DNA from: a virus
IMG/VR virus record: IMGVR_UViG_3300031276_000012
Coordinates: 1 to 25,865 of that record
Length of the DNA stretch: 25,865 nt
Reading direction: 5' to 3' (one strand)
Shown: one piece after another, positions 3,176 through 21,528 of the stretch
How the letters are laid out: every line of letters starts with the position of its first letter
How positions within the stretch are numbered: the stretch's first letter is position 1
Program-made: the position numbers and the translations under genes
The notes under the pieces: model-generated
Databases searched by the model: none
What the model saw: the letters and a program-made list of their open reading frames with translations, nothing else
What the model was told of the DNA's origin: nothing

Positions 3176-3205
3176 ATTATACCACATGTGCGCTTTCAAT
3201 GTCAA
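3176..3205 (-). promoter_or_regulatory. Sigma70-type promoter for the initiator/helicase operon
   Basis: On the minus strand, TTGACA (3200-3205) and TATAAT (3176-3181) are perfect consensus hexamers with an 18-bp spacer, and TGG precedes the -10 (extended -10). The -35 overlaps the stop codon of the methyltransferase gene upstream. Transcription should start near 3168-3170, just before leader L1. Confidence 0.85.
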
Positions 3206-4230
3206 GGCGAAACCTCCAGGGTGAGCTGTACCATTTCGCGCTGGGCGGCCTCGATGCGGGCGCGGGCAGCCTTGAATCGTCGCGCGTTGATCTCGATGCC
3301 TACAAAGTCGCGGCCCAACTGGGCGCACGCCTCGCCCGTCGTTCCCCCGCCCATCATCGGATCGAGCACCAGGTCGCCGGGGTTGCTCGTGGTGGCGATG
3401 ATCCGCTCCATCAGCGCGGGCGGCTTGGGCGTCGGGCACGATGGATCACGCGGCGCGGGCGGGAATTGCCACACGCTGGATACCTTGCCGGGGTTGTTGA
3501 ACGTATAGCGCAAGTCCTCATACTCCCGCCGCAAGTCCTCATACTCCCGCCGCAGGTCCTCATACTCCCGCCGCAGGTACTCACCGCCATGATCATGTGC
3601 GTTGGCATAGGCGCGCAACTGGTGGTAATGTTCTCGTGTGGGCAGCGACCATTGTGTGGTCAGACCGATGTAGTGTGACGCCATCCCGCCACCGCTCAAG
3701 GACGATCCTACGGCTTTGTTAAGATCGCGCCGTGTCAGCCCCGCCCGTTTCCATTCCCCCGCCAAGTACGCCCGCAGCGGCTCAAAGATGAACCCGCGTT
3801 CCCGGTCGCATTGCGCCGTCCATTCGCCCTCGTCGGCGTGGTAGATGAGATACTCGGCCATCACCTGAAAGGAGCGCAACGAGTCAACCACGGTGTAGCC
3901 GTCCATGAAACCTTGCATGTCGCCCGCGTCGTTGTACTTGTCCCACGTCACCCAGTTGATCAGCCCATAGCCATGCGTCTCTATCATATCGGCTATGCGG
4001 CCCAAGATGCGCGGGTCTTTGTGGCTCACCCAAAACGCACCGTTTGGCGCAAGGGCGCGGGCGCATTCTGCGATCCACTGCTCGCACCACGCCAGATAGT
4101 CGGCGGGTGTCATCTTGCAGAAAATGCCGATGTTGTAGGGCGGATCGACAAAGCACAGTTTGACACTCCCCGCCTCAATCCCCGGTAGCACATCCAGGCA
4201 GTCGCCCAGGCGCAAGTCAACGCTCGTCAA
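3202..4230 (-). CDS. Beta-class DNA methyltransferase with REYEDLR heptad repeats
   Basis: A 342-residue S-adenosylmethionine-dependent amino-methyltransferase (N6-adenine or N4-cytosine). Motif IV DPPYN is at residues 29-33 and motif I DPMMGGGTTG at 291-300; the order IV then I defines the beta class. The middle part (about 100-215) should hold target recognition. Residues 222-242 are three copies of REYEDLR, encoded by 21-bp repeats at 3510-3572, and would form a short coiled coil. The start is TTG at 4230, preceded by GGGGAGGGCG and overlapping the previous stop (TTGA). It is the last gene of the primase operon. No partner restriction enzyme is visible, so self-protection against host restriction is the likely role (inference). 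Confidence 0.85.
   Translation of the reverse strand: MTSVDLRLGDCLDVLPGIEAGSVKLCFVDPPYNIGIFCKMTPADYLAWCEQWIAECARALAPNGAFWVSHKDPRILGRIADMIETHGYGLINWVTWDKYNDAGDMQGFMDGYTVVDSLRSFQVMAEYLIYHADEGEWTAQCDRERGFIFEPLRAYLAGEWKRAGLTRRDLNKAVGSSLSGGGMASHYIGLTTQWSLPTREHYHQLRAYANAHDHGGEYLRREYEDLRREYEDLRREYEDLRYTFNNPGKVSSVWQFPPAPRDPSCPTPKPPALMERIIATTSNPGDLVLDPMMGGGTTGEACAQLGRDFVGIEINARRFKAARARIEAAQREMVQLTLEVSP
3510..3587 (-). repeat. 21-bp in-frame tandem repeats in methyltransferase
   Basis: Three 21-bp units (3510-3530, 3531-3551, 3552-3572), the first two identical and the third differing by one base, followed by a degenerate partial unit. Each encodes one REYEDLR heptad. Copy number could vary by slippage without breaking the frame. 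Confidence 0.9.
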
Positions 4231-4673: not shown

Positions 4674-5603
4674 TCAATGCACCCTCCACGCCAGGTCCAG
4701 ATACCGTTGAAACTCCCGCGGCGTCCCACCGTGCAGCGCGAAAAAGTCGTCCGGCTTGCACGGCAGGTCCACCACGCGCCCAGCTTTGCCAAACAGCCGC
4801 GCCGTCTCGGCGGCCTTTTCTGTGGCATCCGGGTCATAGGCCACGTATACCCGCTCGAATCGTTTGAACCGCACGGCCCAGGGCGGTTGGAACCCGCTCT
4901 TGCCCATCGTGCCGACGGTGTTGAAGCCGTATTGCGAAAGCGCGATGCTCTTTTTTTCTCCCTCGGCGATGACGATCTCGGGGACGTCCGCATACACGTT
5001 GTCGGCGTTGAACAAAGTATTCCCAAGTCCTGACATATGGGGCCGGTAACGATCTCCGCTGTCGCCCGGTCGGCATATCCTGTGCCGGATGTTGACGAGC
5101 TGGCCGCCGTTGACGACGGGTATCGTCCAGGACGGGCGGCCTTGTGTGTCGGTCGGGCACTGCCAGCAGAACCCGAGCAGGTAGCGGTCTATCGCCTCAT
5201 CAAAAATGCCTTGACTGTGCCAGTAGTCACGTCCGGCATCGTCAAGGCATTCGTGGTACTCCAGGTGGTCTTTGCATTGCGCCATGCGCTCGAGGGCGGA
5301 GAGACGTTTCTCGTGGTCGGCCTGCTTGCGCTGCATTCGCTTGATCTCGGCCTCGTGCCGTCTGATGGCGATCTGTTCAGGCGTTAGCACGCGCTGCTGG
5401 TCATCGTCCAGCCACCCATCATGGCCCCCGGGACGGCAGAAAAAGTATCCCGTGGAGAAAATCAGAAACCCGTCCTCGGTCGCCTGGTGGCAAATAGGAC
5501 ACGGCCCGCACGCCTCGTCTTGCGTTTTGATGCGCAGATCAAGTCCCGGCCAGCGGTGCTCAGCTAGTGCTATGGCTTCCTCGATGCTACTTGCGCAAGG
5601 CAT
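4674..5603 (-). CDS. DnaG-like primase (zinc-binding plus TOPRIM domains)
   Basis: A 309-residue primase-like protein that should make RNA primers for phage replication. The N-terminal CHC2-type zinc module is CPIC (Cys35, Cys38) with FFCRPGGH (Cys56, His61). A basic helical linker follows (about 75-110). The TOPRIM part has EIVIAEGEKK (Glu214) and VAYDPDA (Asp257, Asp259), the acidic residues that bind metal in this fold. I chose ATG at 5603 (MPCASSIEEA) because TAGGAGAAC precedes it. It is shorter than bacterial DnaG (about 600 residues) and has no helicase domain; a DnaB-like helicase is encoded separately at 916-1887. It heads its operon behind structured leader L2. Confidence 0.85.
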   Translation of the reverse strand: MPCASSIEEAIALAEHRWPGLDLRIKTQDEACGPCPICHQATEDGFLIFSTGYFFCRPGGHDGWLDDDQQRVLTPEQIAIRRHEAEIKRMQRKQADHEKRLSALERMAQCKDHLEYHECLDDAGRDYWHSQGIFDEAIDRYLLGFCWQCPTDTQGRPSWTIPVVNGGQLVNIRHRICRPGDSGDRYRPHMSGLGNTLFNADNVYADVPEIVIAEGEKKSIALSQYGFNTVGTMGKSGFQPPWAVRFKRFERVYVAYDPDATEKAAETARLFGKAGRVVDLPCKPDDFFALHGGTPREFQRYLDLAWRVH

Positions 5604-5621
5604 AGATGTTCTCCTAGAAAC

Positions 5622-5766
5622 AAAAATCCGCGCTCTTCTGAAGGCCGGTTGCCAGGTCGGTAAGCGCGCACACAGAAACGTCATACACGACTACCGGCCC
5701 TCAGAAGGGTACGGATTTATCTGTGTGCTCTATTTGCCGCTGGCACGGCTCTTGTCCGACACCCCT
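5622..5766 (-). ncRNA. Structured leader L2 before primase (1-2-1'-2' topology)
   Basis: On the minus-strand RNA, arm 1 (plus coordinates 5720-5728, GCACACAGA) pairs perfectly with arm 1' (5668-5676). Arm 2 (5712-5717 plus 5693-5707) pairs with arm 2' (5625-5630 plus 5635-5649), 6 bp plus 15 bp with one wobble. The order is 1-2-1'-2' and arm 2' ends in a U-tract (5622-5626). A further GUGCCAG/CUGGCAA pairing encloses arm 1. The primase ribosome site lies just beyond. Sequence downstream of the U-tract (TTTTTGTTTCYAGGA) is shared with leader L1. Confidence 0.7.
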
Positions 5767-5795
5767 ATCATACCACATCCCGCCCTCGTTGTCAA
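5767..5795 (-). promoter_or_regulatory. Sigma70-type promoter for the primase operon
   Basis: Minus-strand TTGACA (5790-5795), 17-bp spacer ending in TGTGG, and TATGAT (5767-5772). It is the same extended -10 context as the other early promoters. It sits about 20 bp past the remnant methyltransferase stop codon at 5818. Confidence 0.8.
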
Positions 5796-5817: not shown

Positions 5818-5905
5818 TCACATCCCCGGCAGGCGCACGGGTAGGGGCTGCTCCAGGCGCGGGATAATGTGCTCGTCACAGTATGCCCGGCTCAACTTGC
5901 GCGAT
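5818..5905 (-). pseudogene. Displaced C-terminal coding tail of the methyltransferase
   Basis: The minus-strand frame encodes LSRAYCDEHIIPRLEQPLPV... and a stop at 5818. This closely matches the current C-terminus of the methyltransferase at 6444-6510 (LSKTYCDEHIIPRLEAPIQV...): 16 of 22 aligned residues are identical while the DNA has diverged. No start or upstream gene body is attached to it. The simplest reading is that this is the original 3' end of the methyltransferase gene, cut off when the HNH gene inserted. The HNH promoter now overlaps it. Confidence 0.75.
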
Positions 5906-5925
5906 TGTCCCTCTTGTGGTATAAT
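5897..5925 (+). promoter_or_regulatory. Promoter for the HNH endonuclease gene
   Basis: Plus-strand TATAAT (5920-5925) preceded by TTGTGG, with a weaker -35 TTGCGC at 5897-5902 and a 17-bp spacer. The HNH ribosome site and ATG follow 25 nt later, so the gene has its own expression signal against the direction of the surrounding operons. Confidence 0.65.
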
Positions 5926-5949
5926 AGACGAAAAGATAGGAGGGTTACT

Positions 5950-6462
5950 ATGCCAGTCAAGTGTGTCTGCCAAGTCTGTGGGAAAGAATTTTATGTCCCG
6001 CCCAGCGATTACAAAAGGGGACGCGGCAAACATTGCTCTAGAAAATGCCTTGCTGTTACAAAGACAAAAGAGATGCGCGGGAATCAGCGTGCTAAAGGGC
6101 ACGGGCCGAATAGTACGACATTCAAGCCAGGCCATGTGCCTTGGAATAAAGACCTGAAAGGTATCCACCTGTCTCCAGACTCCGAGTTCCAAGAGGGCGA
6201 TGTGCCTGCTAATCGTGTTCCTGTGGGCACTGTAACCATCCGAACCGATAAAGGGGGGCACCAACGCAGGTGGATCAAGCTCCATAATAGCCCACGAGGA
6301 TGGAGTGAGTTTGCCCGTGTAGTTTGGATAAATGAGCACGGCAGTATCCCTGACGACATGGTAATTCATCATATCGATCAAGATCCATTGAATGACGACG
6401 TTGAGAATCTTGAGCTGTTGACAAGGGCAGAGCATATTGAGGTTCATAGGAGACGTACCTGA
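5950..6462 (+). CDS. HNH homing-type endonuclease with zinc finger and NUMOD-like region
   Basis: A 170-residue product starting MPVKCVCQVCGKEF, with AGGAGGGTT upstream. The N-terminal zinc finger uses Cys7, Cys10, Cys29 and Cys33. A NUMOD3-like DNA-binding stretch follows (FKPGHVPWNKDLKG, about 58-71). The C-terminal HNH nuclease shows His140-His141, NLELLTRAEH and His162/His166. Free-standing HNH genes of this type cut intron-less or insertion-less alleles to spread themselves. It is the only plus-strand gene in the left arm, is more AT-rich than its neighbours, and its 3' end overlaps the convergent methyltransferase 3' end by 19 bp. The flanks show it is inserted into that gene. Confidence 0.88.
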   Translation: MPVKCVCQVCGKEFYVPPSDYKRGRGKHCSRKCLAVTKTKEMRGNQRAKGHGPNSTTFKPGHVPWNKDLKGIHLSPDSEFQEGDVPANRVPVGTVTIRTDKGGHQRRWIKLHNSPRGWSEFARVVWINEHGSIPDDMVIHHIDQDPLNDDVENLELLTRAEHIEVHRRRT

Positions 6463-7996
6463 ATAGGTGCTTCTAGCCTTGGAATAATGTGTTCATCACA
6501 ATACGTTTTGCTCAATTCAATAAGCAGCACTCGCCGCTTATGCTGAACCGCCACAAGCCCAACGGTCCCCGATCCTGAAAATGGATCAAGTACGGTACAG
6601 GGGACCGTGGGCGCGTCGTGCGAGCAGGTGGGACGCCAGCCGGTGGTGGTGGATGTAATATCAGATCGTATAGTAGAGGCTCCCTTACCATGCCGGATAT
6701 TTGGGGGTTGTTCTGTGTCTTGTAATGAGCAATATGTGCTCCCTTGTCTAATGGTTGTCTTTTCTATCACCCTCTCCCATGGCGCGCCGCAAACGCTACA
6801 GCATCCGCGCGCGCTCGTTGATCCCAAAATGAGCGGCCTGATCAAGTCCTCATTAAACGTGGCATAATGTGCTCCAGGATATCCCTTGGTGTTCACCAAC
6901 AGGGCCAGGGGATCGCTGTCCTCATCGAGCAGTAGCCCGCCATTGTCCCGTAGGTGCTCAAGGTGCGCAAGGTAGGCGCGTTGCTGGCCAATGAGGGCAT
7001 CCAGGGAGTCATAGAAAAAGTCGGACGTGCGCAGGTTGCGGCCTGGCGCTCCCACCTGGTGGACGGTTTGGCCCAGGGTGCCATTCTCGCCGTCTTGCAG
7101 CGTGCGGCGTTTTTCGCCGGCATTTGCCCCATTGCCGCCATGGCTCGTTGCGCTACCGGGCACACTCACGGCCTCTTTGTCCCAGTAGTAGCGCTCGCTT
7201 TTGGTGAGCATGAACCAGTATTCGTGTGCGGTCGTGGGGCGGTCGTTCATCGACTCTGGCATGCAGTTTTTCTTGATCCACGGCGGGGCGCTCCGCAACC
7301 ACCACCCGTCAGCCTGGAGGGCGAGGGCGCACCGCCACGGAATGCCGCAGAGGTCTTTGGGCTTGAGGCCCGGGCCTGGGTTGGCTGTGGGGGGCAATCC
7401 GCGCCAGCCGTTGTCCGCGTCCTCATATGCCTGCCGATGCCATCGCTCAGAGATTCGGCTACGTTGCTTACCGTCCCGGGTGCCATAATTGCCCCAACTA
7501 CCAGCGTAAGAATCGCCGCAGTTCCAGAACATCACCCCGTCCTCTCTGAGCACCCTCTTCAACTCCCGGCATATCGCCACCGTGTGGCCCACATATTCCT
7601 CAATCGTTCTCTCCAATCCGTAACTCCCCCGCCACCCGCCGCAGCGCTGGCAGTATTGGCCGTGTGTCCCTGAGAAGTGTGTATGACTATCTTTGTGCTG
7701 TCCAGTCAAGGCGTGGCTTGTGCCTCCAGAATACTTGATTTCTGGCCCGTCATTCCACACATGCTCGCACCCCTCTGCACACCCCGCCACTTCAATCTCG
7801 GGCAGTCCCGGCATTGGACTGTAGCGCACCGTGGGCCATTCGACGGGGGGAAGGCCATAGTCGCGTAATCCCCACTACTTCAGTAGGGCGGAGAGGTCAC
7901 AATACAGTGAACACTCCCCGCCCCAAGTCCCTCCAGCACGTCCAACACGTTGCCCTGGTATAGTTTCGCGCCGTCGTGTTGCCAGTATGGTGTCAC
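6444..7996 (-). pseudogene. Beta-class DNA methyltransferase, frame broken by an 8-nt insertion after SPPY
   Basis: Translation from GTG at 7996 (GTGA overlap with the upstream stop) gives 38 residues ending GSVHCIVTSPPY and then a stop. Skipping 8 nt (7875-7882), the frame continues WGLRDYGLPPVEWPTVRYSPMPG and runs to 6444. The joined product is about 510 residues, with motif IV TSPPY near the N-terminus and motif I DPFSGSGTVG near the C-terminus, a beta-class N6-adenine/N4-cytosine methyltransferase. Cysteine pairs (CQRCGG, CSVCGAPW) suggest zinc binding. The longest intact frame starts at 7829 (MRYSPMPGLP) and lacks the catalytic SPPY. Its last 22 codons duplicate the tail at 5818-5905. 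It could be a true pseudogene, a phase-variable allele, a programmed bypass, or a sequencing error. Confidence 0.8.
7875..7886. repeat. 12-bp imperfect palindrome containing the 8-nt insertion
   Basis: CTACTTCAGTAG: 5-bp inverted arms around TC. Removing 7875-7882 restores the methyltransferase reading frame and the expected SPPY-WGLRDYG sequence, so the palindrome was created by the insertion. Confidence 0.7.
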
Positions 7997-8301
7997 AGTT
8001 CCAACTCCATCTGTTGTGGCACGTTGGCTAGTCCCTTCCACCGCTCCCAGGCCACGAGCTGCGCACGCTGTAGGCGACGGTTGGCGTCGGCCCAGATCGG
8101 CAGGTTGGAGTAATCCCAGTCTACCGTGGAAACCTCACCCATCGCGTGGCTCTCTGCCGCCGTCTGTGCAATGAGGAATTCCATCAGCCCCCAATCCTCT
8201 CGTGCCTCATTTTTGAGCGATACGAGGTTGGCCCTTTCTTGCTCTAATAGTTCCGGTTCGGTACAGTATTCGCGCCAATTGTGGCGGGTGATCGTGGTCA
8301 T
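7993..8301 (-). CDS. Hypothetical early protein, 102 residues
   Basis: Product MTTITRHNWREYCTEPELLE..., mostly helical and charged, with several Trp residues (DWDYSNLPIWAD, VAWERWKG). It overlaps both neighbours by 4 bp (ATGA with the gene upstream, GTGA with the methyltransferase), so it belongs to the operon starting near 9605. No recognised domain. Its position directly before the methyltransferase may mean they act together, but nothing in the sequence shows this. Confidence 0.65.
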   Translation of the reverse strand: MTTITRHNWREYCTEPELLEQERANLVSLKNEAREDWGLMEFLIAQTAAESHAMGEVSTVDWDYSNLPIWADANRRLQRAQLVAWERWKGLANVPQQMELEL

Positions 8302-18562: not shown

Positions 18563-19055
18563 GCAGCTAGGGGCTGTTCTGGGACAGCTTTCGACAGACC
18601 AAATCCGGTTCGTCGTGGCGCGTCTGGAGAAACAGACAGACAAAGAGGCTGCTGAATCCCTGGAGATGAAACCGGATACCGTCTATCACTGGAAGAGCCG
18701 GGACAAGGCACCGATTGATGAGGCGCTGCGGCTGATGGCAGAGGACGGTCTTGTTGTGGCTCAGCATGTCCGCCGGCGCAACCTGGCAAAGGCCATGTTG
18801 GTCAAAGTCGGCGGCTTGGATAGCAACAGTGAAAATATCCGCCAAGGTGTTGCCACTGAGATCATCGAATGGGAAATGGGCAAGCCCACACAGCGCGCCG
18901 AGCTATCCGGCAAGGACGGCGGGCCGATTGAGACAAGCGTCACACTAACCGATGAAAAAAGAGATCGCGCACTATCTTCACTCGCTGACGCCATCGCAAG
19001 TTGTATACCTGGAGTCGGTGAGAGCGGGGACGGCGCTGTGGGCACCGCAGAGTAG
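18519..19055 (+). CDS. terS: Terminase small subunit-like protein
   Basis: A 178-residue product MTEEIQASPKNSISEQLGAV... The middle has a helix-turn-helix, TDKEAAESLEMKPDTVYHWK (about residues 46-65), of the kind used by small terminases to recognise packaging sites on phage DNA. A helical region (VRRRNLAKAMLVKVGGLDSN) and an acidic C-terminal part follow. It lies directly before and overlaps the large subunit, the standard terS-terL order. Assignment rests on HTH and context. The C-terminal 100 bp overlap the large-subunit frame. Confidence 0.68.
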   Translation: MTEEIQASPKNSISEQLGAVLGQLSTDQIRFVVARLEKQTDKEAAESLEMKPDTVYHWKSRDKAPIDEALRLMAEDGLVVAQHVRRRNLAKAMLVKVGGLDSNSENIRQGVATEIIEWEMGKPTQRAELSGKDGGPIETSVTLTDEKRDRALSSLADAIASCIPGVGESGDGAVGTAE

Positions 19056-21528
19056 GCCGCAATGGCTGGCCTACCTATCGCCCGCCGATGAACTGTTTTA
19101 CGGCGGGGCGGCAGGTGGGGGAAAGGCGCTTATGATTGAGACGCCATTACCAACGCCCACTGGCTGGACCACAATGGCAGATGTGGAAGCCGGTGATTGC
19201 CTGTTGGATGAAAACGGTCAGCCCTGTATCGTGTTGGCAGCCACTGGCATAATGCTTGGGCATCCATGCTATCGGATAACATTTAGTGATGGCGCGTCAT
19301 TGGTGGCAGATGAGGGCCACCAGTGGCACACAATGACGGATAGCGAGCGAAGCAAGGCACATCGACGCACGCCAGAATACCGGGCCAATCGTCGCGCCAA
19401 TCGTCCCAGCCGAAGCGCTGGGCGGCGTCCAGACTTAGTGATGGCAAACAAAGAGCGTGATTATGCCTTGCTAGATCCGCCGATGGGCAAGGTGCGCACA
19501 ACGCAAGACATTTATCATACGCTGAAGGTGCGAGGGCGCACCAATCATTCTATAGGGGTGTGCCAGTCCCTTGAATTGCCCGAGGCCGATTTGCCTATTG
19601 ATCCCTATATCTTTGGTGCGTGGCTAGGCGATGGCAGCAGCTACAAGGCAGAAATAACAACCGCCGATCCAGAGATAATTGATTCTATAGAAGAAGAATA
19701 CGAAACCAAGCGGCGGTCAGAAATTGCTTATGGCATCTATGGCCTGTTAACAACCTTAAAAGAATTGGGCCTTATCGGTCAAAAGCGAATCTTGCCCATT
19801 TATCTACGGGGATCTACCGGGCAAAGATTAGCGCTCCTTCAAGGATTGATGGACACCGATGGCTATTGTGACCCACGAGGCCAATGTGAGTTTACCACAA
19901 CTAGCCCGGCATTGCGCGATGGCATGTTCGAGTTATTGGGTACATTGGGGATAAAGGTCGCTATTTCCGAAGGGCGCGCGACATTAAACGGGCGCGATTG
20001 CGGGCCAAAATACCGGCTCAAGTTCCTTACCTCTTTGCCAGCTTTCCGCCTGAAGCGCAAATTAGAGGGCCAAAAGGGAAAAGGCTTTCGAGGAACGCAT
20101 GAGCAGCGGTACATTGTCGGCGTTGAGCCGATTGAGAGCGTTCCCGTTCGATGTATTAAGGTAAGTTCGCTGTCTGGGATTTTTCTTGCCGGTACATCAT
20201 TTATCCCAACCCACAACAGCGACTTGCTTGAGGGCCTAGCGATAACAGCACATGAAAAATCGATCATCTTCCGGCGTGAGTATACGCAGCTCACCGGGGC
20301 GACGGGCCTGATCGAGCGGAGCCATGAACTGCTAGACGACCACGCGCACTACAATGCGCAAGAGCACGTATGGCGCGACATTCCCGACGGGCGGTCGCTC
20401 GACTTTGGGGCAGTACAGCACGAGAAAGACAAGCGGCGCTACCAGGGCCGACCGCATGACCTGATCGCCTTTGACGAGGTGACAGAGTTCACAGAGTCGC
20501 AGTACCGTTTTCTGATCGGCTGGCTGCGCACGACCACAGAAGGCCAGCGCTGCCGGGTGGTGGCAACGGGCAACCCGCCGACACATGCGGAGGGCGAGTG
20601 GGTGATCCGCTACTGGGCACCGTGGCTGGATGATACGCACCCCAGCCCGGCGCAACCGGGCGAGCTACGATGGTTCGCGGTCATCAAGGGCAAGAGCCTG
20701 GAGGTGGATGGTCCGGAACCGTTCGAGCAGGACGGCGAAACGGTGATCCCGCAATCGCGGACGTTCATCCCGGCCCGGCTGAGCGATAACGTGTATCTGA
20801 TGCGCACCGGGTATGAGCAGACGTTGCAGGGGCTTCCGGAGCCGCTGCGCTCACAACTGCTTTACGGTGACTTTACGGTCGGGACGCAAGATGACCCGTG
20901 GCAGACGATACCGACGGCCTGGGTGCGGGCGGCCTTTGACCGCTGGGAGCAGAGAGAACGGCCCGACACGCCGCTGACTATGCTGGGCGTGGATGTGGCA
21001 AGGGGCGGAGATGACCAGACGGTGTTGAGTAGGCGATACGATAACTGGTTTGCGCCACTGGAGAAACACGACGGACGCGCGACGCCTGACGGTCCCAGCG
21101 CGGCGGCATTGGCGATTATGGCGCTGGGCGATGACGATGCACAGATCAACATCGACGTGATCGGCGTGGGAGCATCGGCCTATGACGACCTGGCCAACCA
21201 GAGCATCCGGGTGACGGGTGTCAATTTTGCGGAGAAAAGCGACGCGCGCGACAGGTCGGGCCGGCTGGCCATGCGCAACAAGCGGGCTGAAGCGTATTGG
21301 GGAATGAGGGAAGCGCTTGACCCGATCAAAGGCGACGATATCGCCCTACCAAGAGACAATGAACTACTGGCCGACTTGTGTGCGCCACGCTGGAAGATCA
21401 CGACGGGGGGCATATTGATTGAGAGCAAAGAGGATATCAAGGCGCGTCTTGGGCACTCCCCAGATTGTGGCGACGCCGTGGTGTTGGCCCGAATGGAAGG
21501 GCGCAAAATCCTGATAGGCTGGGTGTAG
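18952..21528 (+). CDS. terL: Terminase large subunit with in-frame intein
   Basis: 858 codons including a 364-residue intein (19126-20217); the spliced protein would be about 494 residues, a normal size. It packages phage DNA using an ATPase and a nuclease. The P-loop AAGGGK is interrupted before Ser423, which restores GGGKS after splicing. Walker B is LIAFDEVTEF, and a motor coupling motif ATGNPP follows. The RNase H-like nuclease begins at MLGVDVARGGDDQT, with SPDCGDAVVLA near the end. Start is uncertain: ATG 18952 has no good ribosome site; GTG 19018, with GGAG just upstream, is an alternative that leaves the motor intact. Splicing is required for an active ATPase. Confidence 0.9.
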   Translation: MKKEIAHYLHSLTPSQVVYLESVRAGTALWAPQSRPQWLAYLSPADELFYGGAAGGGKALMIETPLPTPTGWTTMADVEAGDCLLDENGQPCIVLAATGIMLGHPCYRITFSDGASLVADEGHQWHTMTDSERSKAHRRTPEYRANRRANRPSRSAGRRPDLVMANKERDYALLDPPMGKVRTTQDIYHTLKVRGRTNHSIGVCQSLELPEADLPIDPYIFGAWLGDGSSYKAEITTADPEIIDSIEEEYETKRRSEIAYGIYGLLTTLKELGLIGQKRILPIYLRGSTGQRLALLQGLMDTDGYCDPRGQCEFTTTSPALRDGMFELLGTLGIKVAISEGRATLNGRDCGPKYRLKFLTSLPAFRLKRKLEGQKGKGFRGTHEQRYIVGVEPIESVPVRCIKVSSLSGIFLAGTSFIPTHNSDLLEGLAITAHEKSIIFRREYTQLTGATGLIERSHELLDDHAHYNAQEHVWRDIPDGRSLDFGAVQHEKDKRRYQGRPHDLIAFDEVTEFTESQYRFLIGWLRTTTEGQRCRVVATGNPPTHAEGEWVIRYWAPWLDDTHPSPAQPGELRWFAVIKGKSLEVDGPEPFEQDGETVIPQSRTFIPARLSDNVYLMRTGYEQTLQGLPEPLRSQLLYGDFTVGTQDDPWQTIPTAWVRAAFDRWEQRERPDTPLTMLGVDVARGGDDQTVLSRRYDNWFAPLEKHDGRATPDGPSAAALAIMALGDDDAQINIDVIGVGASAYDDLANQSIRVTGVNFAEKSDARDRSGRLAMRNKRAEAYWGMREALDPIKGDDIALPRDNELLADLCAPRWKITTGGILIESKEDIKARLGHSPDCGDAVVLARMEGRKILIGWV
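19126..20217 (+). mobile_element. Class 3 intein with LAGLIDADG endonuclease in the terL P-loop
   Basis: Residues 59-422 of the terminase frame. The first residue is Ala, not Cys or Ser. Trp125 (in DEGHQWHT), Cys401 (RCIKVS) and Thr420 (PTHN) fit the W-C-T set that defines class 3 inteins, where the block F cysteine starts splicing. The C-terminal HN and +1 Ser are intact. Two LAGLIDADG motifs are present, IFGAWLGDGS (about 220-229) and LLQGLMDTDG (about 295-304), so the homing endonuclease looks complete. The DNA is more AT-rich than the flanking terminase, consistent with a separate origin. Confidence 0.9.

Follow-up and report, generated by a model that had tools for sequence, protein, structure and literature searches.

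A homing gene that settles in a protein-coding gene is believed to depend on an intron, an intein or a gene border if its host gene is to survive. Mobile endonuclease ORFs (mORFs) that replace the C-terminus of the invaded gene have been described in fungal mitochondria, namely in atp6 of Allomyces and in atp6, atp9, cox2 and nad3 of Glomus (PMC3630166). In Glomus atp6 the duplicated C-termini share 63.5% nucleotide identity; the inserted copy is expressed together with the gene core and the native copy is displaced (PMC3630166). T4-type homing in phages offers documented cases of one-sided illegitimate repair whose junctions show microhomology (PMC2988022). An out-of-frame HNH gene within a phage DNA methylase is known from the ShiLan element (PMC11855218). 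Our literature search, which most subscription journals lay outside, found no published phage case of end replacement.

In this study, we analyse a window of 25,865 nucleotides, the whole stretch available to us, which is a fragment of an uncultured phage (IMG/VR virus record IMGVR_UViG_3300031276_000012). An earlier reading of this DNA, made from the sequence alone and here called the original prediction, proposed that a mobile HNH gene had supplied a methyltransferase (MTase) gene with a replacement C-terminus. We consider it likely that an HNH homing endonuclease gene replaced the MTase 3' end, bringing along a foreign homologous tail and leaving the native end stranded. Such a mechanism has a precedent in the fungal C-terminus-replacing endonuclease ORFs (PMC3630166).

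Results

Two diverged MTase ends flank an HNH gene

The features of the locus are as follows (positions in the window).

5767..5795, minus strand: promoter-like site TTGACA-17-TATGAT, just past the distal tail, toward a primase-like gene (4674-5684)
5895..5818, minus strand: distal orphan MTase tail LSRAYCDEHIIPRLEQPLPVRLPGM and stop, stranded, putatively native
5890-5895, minus strand: TTGAGC, downstream end of the insert; 6-bp junction sequence common to both ends
5917-5925, plus strand: extended -10-like TGgTATAAT of the HNH gene, by inspection
5938-5944, plus strand: Shine-Dalgarno sequence AGGAGGG of the HNH gene, by inspection
5950 (ATG)..6462 (stop), plus strand: free-standing HNH_3 endonuclease gene, 170 aa (PF13392, E=2.7e-15; phrog_1891, E=1.4e-24)
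6444..6515, minus strand: proximal MTase tail LSKTYCDEHIIPRLEAPIQVRLL and stop, fused in frame, putatively foreign; predicted terminal helix
6510-6515, minus strand: TTGAGC (codons Leu-Ser), upstream end of the insert
6516..7829, minus strand: MTase body, N6/N4-type DNA methyltransferase (PF01555, Pfam E=7e-27), native codon usage, GC3 0.67
7829..6444, minus strand: MTase ORF, 461 aa, ending ...LIELSKTYCDEHIIPRLEAPIQVRLL and stop
7875-7882, minus strand: 8-nt insert TGAAGTAG that breaks the MTase frame between TSPPY and WGLRDYG
7883..8041, minus strand: N-terminal MTase fragment ending ...HCIVTSPPY and stop

The HNH gene thus sits between two homologous copies of the MTase C-terminal coding end. 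As originally predicted, both tails read YCDEHIIPRLE in diverged DNA, and the coordinates bear out an HNH gene on the opposite strand that overlaps the MTase tail (by 19 bp, 6444-6462) and is bordered by a shared gctcaa. Over their shared stretch the tails align gap-free with 43/72 identical nucleotides (60%); six of the 23 codon pairs are identical, 11 synonymous and 6 non-synonymous. Aligned with each other, the tails reach a Smith-Waterman score of 94; the runner-up among all stop-to-stop segments of the window in six frames reaches 39, and the top score in 2000 shuffles is 40. This rules out chance similarity and confirms a real tail duplication, far above chance.

A single frame joining the MTase to the orphan tail through the HNH antisense strand was considered and rejected: an ORF from 6447 to 5818 (minus strand) is open, but the MTase uses a different frame. 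The ATG of this ORF overlaps the MTase stop (ATGA), and it runs through the HNH antisense into the distal tail with its codons in register with the HNH codons; its openness may be due to chance. Elsewhere in the window, a second MTase (PF01555, 3202-4230, minus strand) contains a short in-frame tandem repeat, LRREYEDLRREYEDLRREYED, and the large terminase ORF (18952-21525, plus strand) matches LAGLIDADG_3 and contains, after its GGGK motif, an intein-like insertion that ends ...THNS.

Codon usage distinguishes the two tails

Codon usage was scored with a synonymous-codon model trained on twelve phage genes, with 915 native windows as reference. The proximal tail has a z of -4.56, within the lowest 0.7% of the 915 windows, and the HNH gene a z of -6.9; the distal tail scores +1.34. 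GC3 of the MTase in 20-codon blocks ranges from 0.35 to 0.9 and then falls to 0.25 in the final block, directly after TTGAGC. Orthologs have tails with a GC3 of 0.55-0.75, roughly equal to that of their own bodies (0.60-0.73), which shows that the family does not in general have AT-rich tails. By codon usage and GC3, then, the HNH gene and the proximal tail appear to form a single foreign unit, and the distal tail appears to be the phage's own, which fits the proposal that the mobile gene supplied the replacement C-terminus. We hold with moderate confidence, on compositional grounds, that the proximal tail is foreign and the distal tail native; some 20 codons carry the signal of the foreign tail, and a GC3 this low is seen in about 0.8% of native 20-codon windows.

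Two other histories of the tails were weighed. The distal tail might be all that is left of another MTase gene in tandem, its body having disappeared or been exchanged at the arrival of the HNH gene, while the upstream MTase would have had its present tail from the start. Tandem MTases do occur in related loci (L018, L041, L042, L034, L069), and the window itself holds the further PF01555 MTase at 3202-4230. Against this, the upstream MTase appears to be the chimera, since its codon usage breaks sharply at the last 21 codons and that of the orphan tail agrees with the phage; the orphan tail also starts at exactly the codon where the upstream change occurs. We regard a tandem remnant as improbable. 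The reverse polarity, in which the proximal tail is native, the HNH gene is merely a convergent downstream neighbour and the distal tail was acquired with it from elsewhere, is more improbable still. Although phage homing genes are commonly intergenic and may overlap their neighbours, and the HNH gene overlaps the proximal tail by so few base pairs, codon usage and GC3 contradict this polarity for both tails. Moreover, the original end of the MTase would be expected close to the primase-like gene that follows, and the distal tail does lie beside the promoter-like site of that gene (the promoter scan returned 2 promoter-like sites, with 1.2 expected by chance).

The HNH gene and the MTase structure at the junction

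The HNH gene is a stand-alone ORF with its own start and an intact HNH domain, the hallmarks of a free-standing HNH homing endonuclease. The protein carries an N-terminal CxxC...CxxxC and an intact HH.D...N...H motif, and its PF13392 match covers profile positions 5-44 of 46. It is a candidate homing endonuclease, to which we would attribute cleavage and mobility. The promoter scan found no plus-strand promoter at 5917-5944. Comparison of the protein with sequences of solved structures gave chance matches only, and its structure model was of poor quality and unusable for fold search. At E 1e-8, no HNH relatives were found in 396 Anaerolineae-class genomes; this search had no positive control and shows little.

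In the AlphaFold model of the MTase (mean pLDDT 61; 81-84 for residues 421-450 and 54 for 451-460), the replaced stretch corresponds to the predicted last helix (441-453), which follows a strand at 433-436. The change point of codon usage, the shared TTGAGC and the modelled border between the last beta strand and the terminal helix coincide. According to the model, loss of the terminal helix would remove the end of the SAM-binding fold.

Relatives of the locus

Relatives were gathered by a degenerate tail-motif scan and alignments. The MTases of L129, L092, L010 and L008 each end once in a tail of this type. The original prediction looked to phages lacking the HNH gene, and such relatives (L129, L092, L010) do carry a single tail, with the consensus ...YC[DR][ED]HI[IV]PRL... 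and stop. L129 encodes a full-length ortholog of 485 aa that is 65% identical to the window MTase over an 84-residue stretch. A protein search (E<=0.01) for the window HNH in these three records, which may be fragments, gave no match. With a cousin in the MTase of L088, the HNH gene thus has the patchy presence that characterises homing endonucleases.

Among about 110 related MTase loci, the window is the only one with a partial tail duplicate. The only other high-scoring downstream matches are those in L018, L041 and L042; since the matching ORFs carry their own DPPY motif, they are second tandem MTase genes and not stranded tails. The collections searched, from which records very close to the window may be missing, contained no uninvaded allele, in which the MTase body would be joined at TTGAGC directly to CGGGCATACTGTGACGAG... 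of the distal tail, and the loci searched contained no second HNH and tail unit. Protein-only scans of viral contigs with the MTase and with the HNH protein gave no matches. Because neither an empty-site relative nor a second unit was found, we infer direction and mobility.

A frame break at the catalytic motif of the MTase

The original prediction held that the invaded gene stays intact. This applies to the 3' end only; at the catalytic motif, TSPPY|W, the reading frame of the MTase is interrupted. WGLRDYG resumes in another frame than TSPPY, and the MTase ORF (7829..6444) begins downstream of the break. L129 and L092 lack the frame-breaking insert, and L008 carries one of 7 nt in this position. 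Because of this break, the MTase may already be inactive, or may be made in pieces, and selection for a functional MTase is not evident.

Inserts directly after the TSPPY codons were observed in the window (8 nt), in L008 (7 nt; reverse strand, ~3335-3341) and in L063 (about 4 nt; ~2980). All three begin with an in-frame TGA; those of the window and L008 end with TAG before TGG and form near-palindromes. They could be repair scars, split genes or sites of ribosomal hopping. At about the same spot, L059 carries a LAGLIDADG gene.

The MTase family is a recurrent target of homing genes

Nucleases and inteins outside the window were assigned by motif inspection. An HNH_3 cousin of the window gene (36% identity over 159 aa) splits the MTase of L088 before the SAM-binding motif. 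Genes on the opposite strand split the MTases of L008 (by inspection resembling VSR-like nucleases), of L037 (an HNH gene) and of L059 (a LAGLIDADG gene, at the catalytic motif). Antisense HNH-type genes lie inside the MTases of L083 (3197-3817, minus strand) and L115 (2052-2621, minus strand), where the MTase frame is open through the whole insert. Since nucleases interrupt the MTases of L088, L008, L037, L059, L083 and L115, the family is a recurrent homing target. The MTases of L094 and L112 contain intein-like insertions.

Some further features of these loci were noted. The antisense HNH genes of L083 and L115 have the same phase relative to the MTase. In L008, a second HNH-motif ORF (3451-4005, minus strand) lies directly upstream of the split MTase, which is thus both flanked and interrupted by nuclease genes. 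The breaks in L008 (1929-2801), L037 (2200-2950) and L088 (3570-4290), made by different nucleases at different sites, share similar peptides: the N-terminal fragments end LR.DLT...YV..EL-like and the C-terminal fragments start P.HL..[FY]F (shuffle tests 0-0.65%, in a small sample spotted by eye). These peptides look like docking tails through which the fragments might reassemble; the one of L037 had no match when searched in phages.

Discussion

We propose that the HNH gene entered the MTase 3' end at the Leu-Ser codons (TTGAGC), at the border of strand and helix. The donor would be a related MTase allele or phage, from which the last ~21 codons and the stop came along, read opposite to the HNH gene. 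The resident MTase would thereby have been re-ended with a foreign homologous helix, and its native last codons, now detached from the gene, left as a remnant ~620 bp further downstream. The route was probably one-sided break repair: an HNH-bearing donor may have served as the template for mending a break in the MTase 3' end, with homologous exchange at the MTase flank and a microhomology join (TTGAGC) at the other. The insertion would part the halves of a site spanning TTGAGC and could so protect the carrier, even though the native tail persists.

The prediction had likened the locus to the gene-end regeneration of some integrating elements. We found no integrase and a repeat of 6 bp where att repeats would be expected. 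Regeneration by a tyrosine recombinase was accordingly rejected: the insert holds only the HNH gene, its flanks have 6 bp in common and the two tails share 60% identity.

How far end replacement was the work of a moving unit is a separate question. The tail may have come along in one isolated accident of one-sided repair in this lineage, and not be part of a recurrently moving nuclease with a gene end. The single instance among the loci searched agrees with such an accident, and the TTGAGC junction fits one-sided illegitimate repair of the T4 type (PMC2988022); in fungal mitochondria, on the other hand, a single genome has such units in four genes, and they are present in several lineages (PMC3630166). 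Because similar units recur there, and as sampling here is thin, recurrence is possible. We give the single accident slightly less than an even chance; it is a narrower version of our preferred explanation and overlaps with it, and is not an alternative to tail replacement. That the ~620 bp form a self-contained homing cassette carrying its own recoded replacement gene end seems rather doubtful to us. With no second HNH and tail unit found, one recombination event and a unit-moving cassette cannot be told apart.

A cassette, if real, would spare an enzyme gene even when entering its conserved core, and would leave an allele that its own nuclease no longer cuts. It would be one of several independent homing modes in the MTase family, besides inteins, out-of-frame or antisense genes, and split genes with possible docking peptides. 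End replacement in a phage, if true, would be a further route besides intron, intein and gene border. It would explain chimeric phage gene ends and offer a bacterial system for testing the mitochondrial mORF mechanism. The last codons of such genes may differ in history from the rest of the gene.

Among phage systems, the locus resembles the free-standing homing endonucleases (T4 Mob/Seg, Aeh1 mobE; PMC2988022) in that an HNH-family gene, as the mob genes are, lies in a phage enzyme gene, and the one-sided repair of T4-type homing is a possible route here. Aeh1 mobE breaks nrdA up into two polypeptides; in our case the effect is limited to the last helix, which is replaced. As in ShiLan (PMC11855218), an HNH homing gene is hidden in a phage MTase with the reading frame unbroken at the site; the ShiLan gene lies inside the MTase frame and brings no replacement end, whereas the window HNH lies antisense at the 3' end with a duplicated tail. 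The closest arrangement described so far is the fungal mitochondrial mORF. Our locus differs in being phage DNA, in its HNH nuclease (LAGLIDADG or GIY-YIG in Glomus), in the orientation opposite to the host gene and in an exchanged end of ~21 codons; the native end is proposed here from codon usage and not from a close relative. As in the mORFs, an endonuclease ORF is flanked by two diverged C-terminal copies, the upstream one fused in frame and foreign-looking and the downstream one stranded and, in our locus, native-like in codon usage, and the DNA identity of the tails (60%) is near that in Glomus atp6 (63.5%; PMC3630166).
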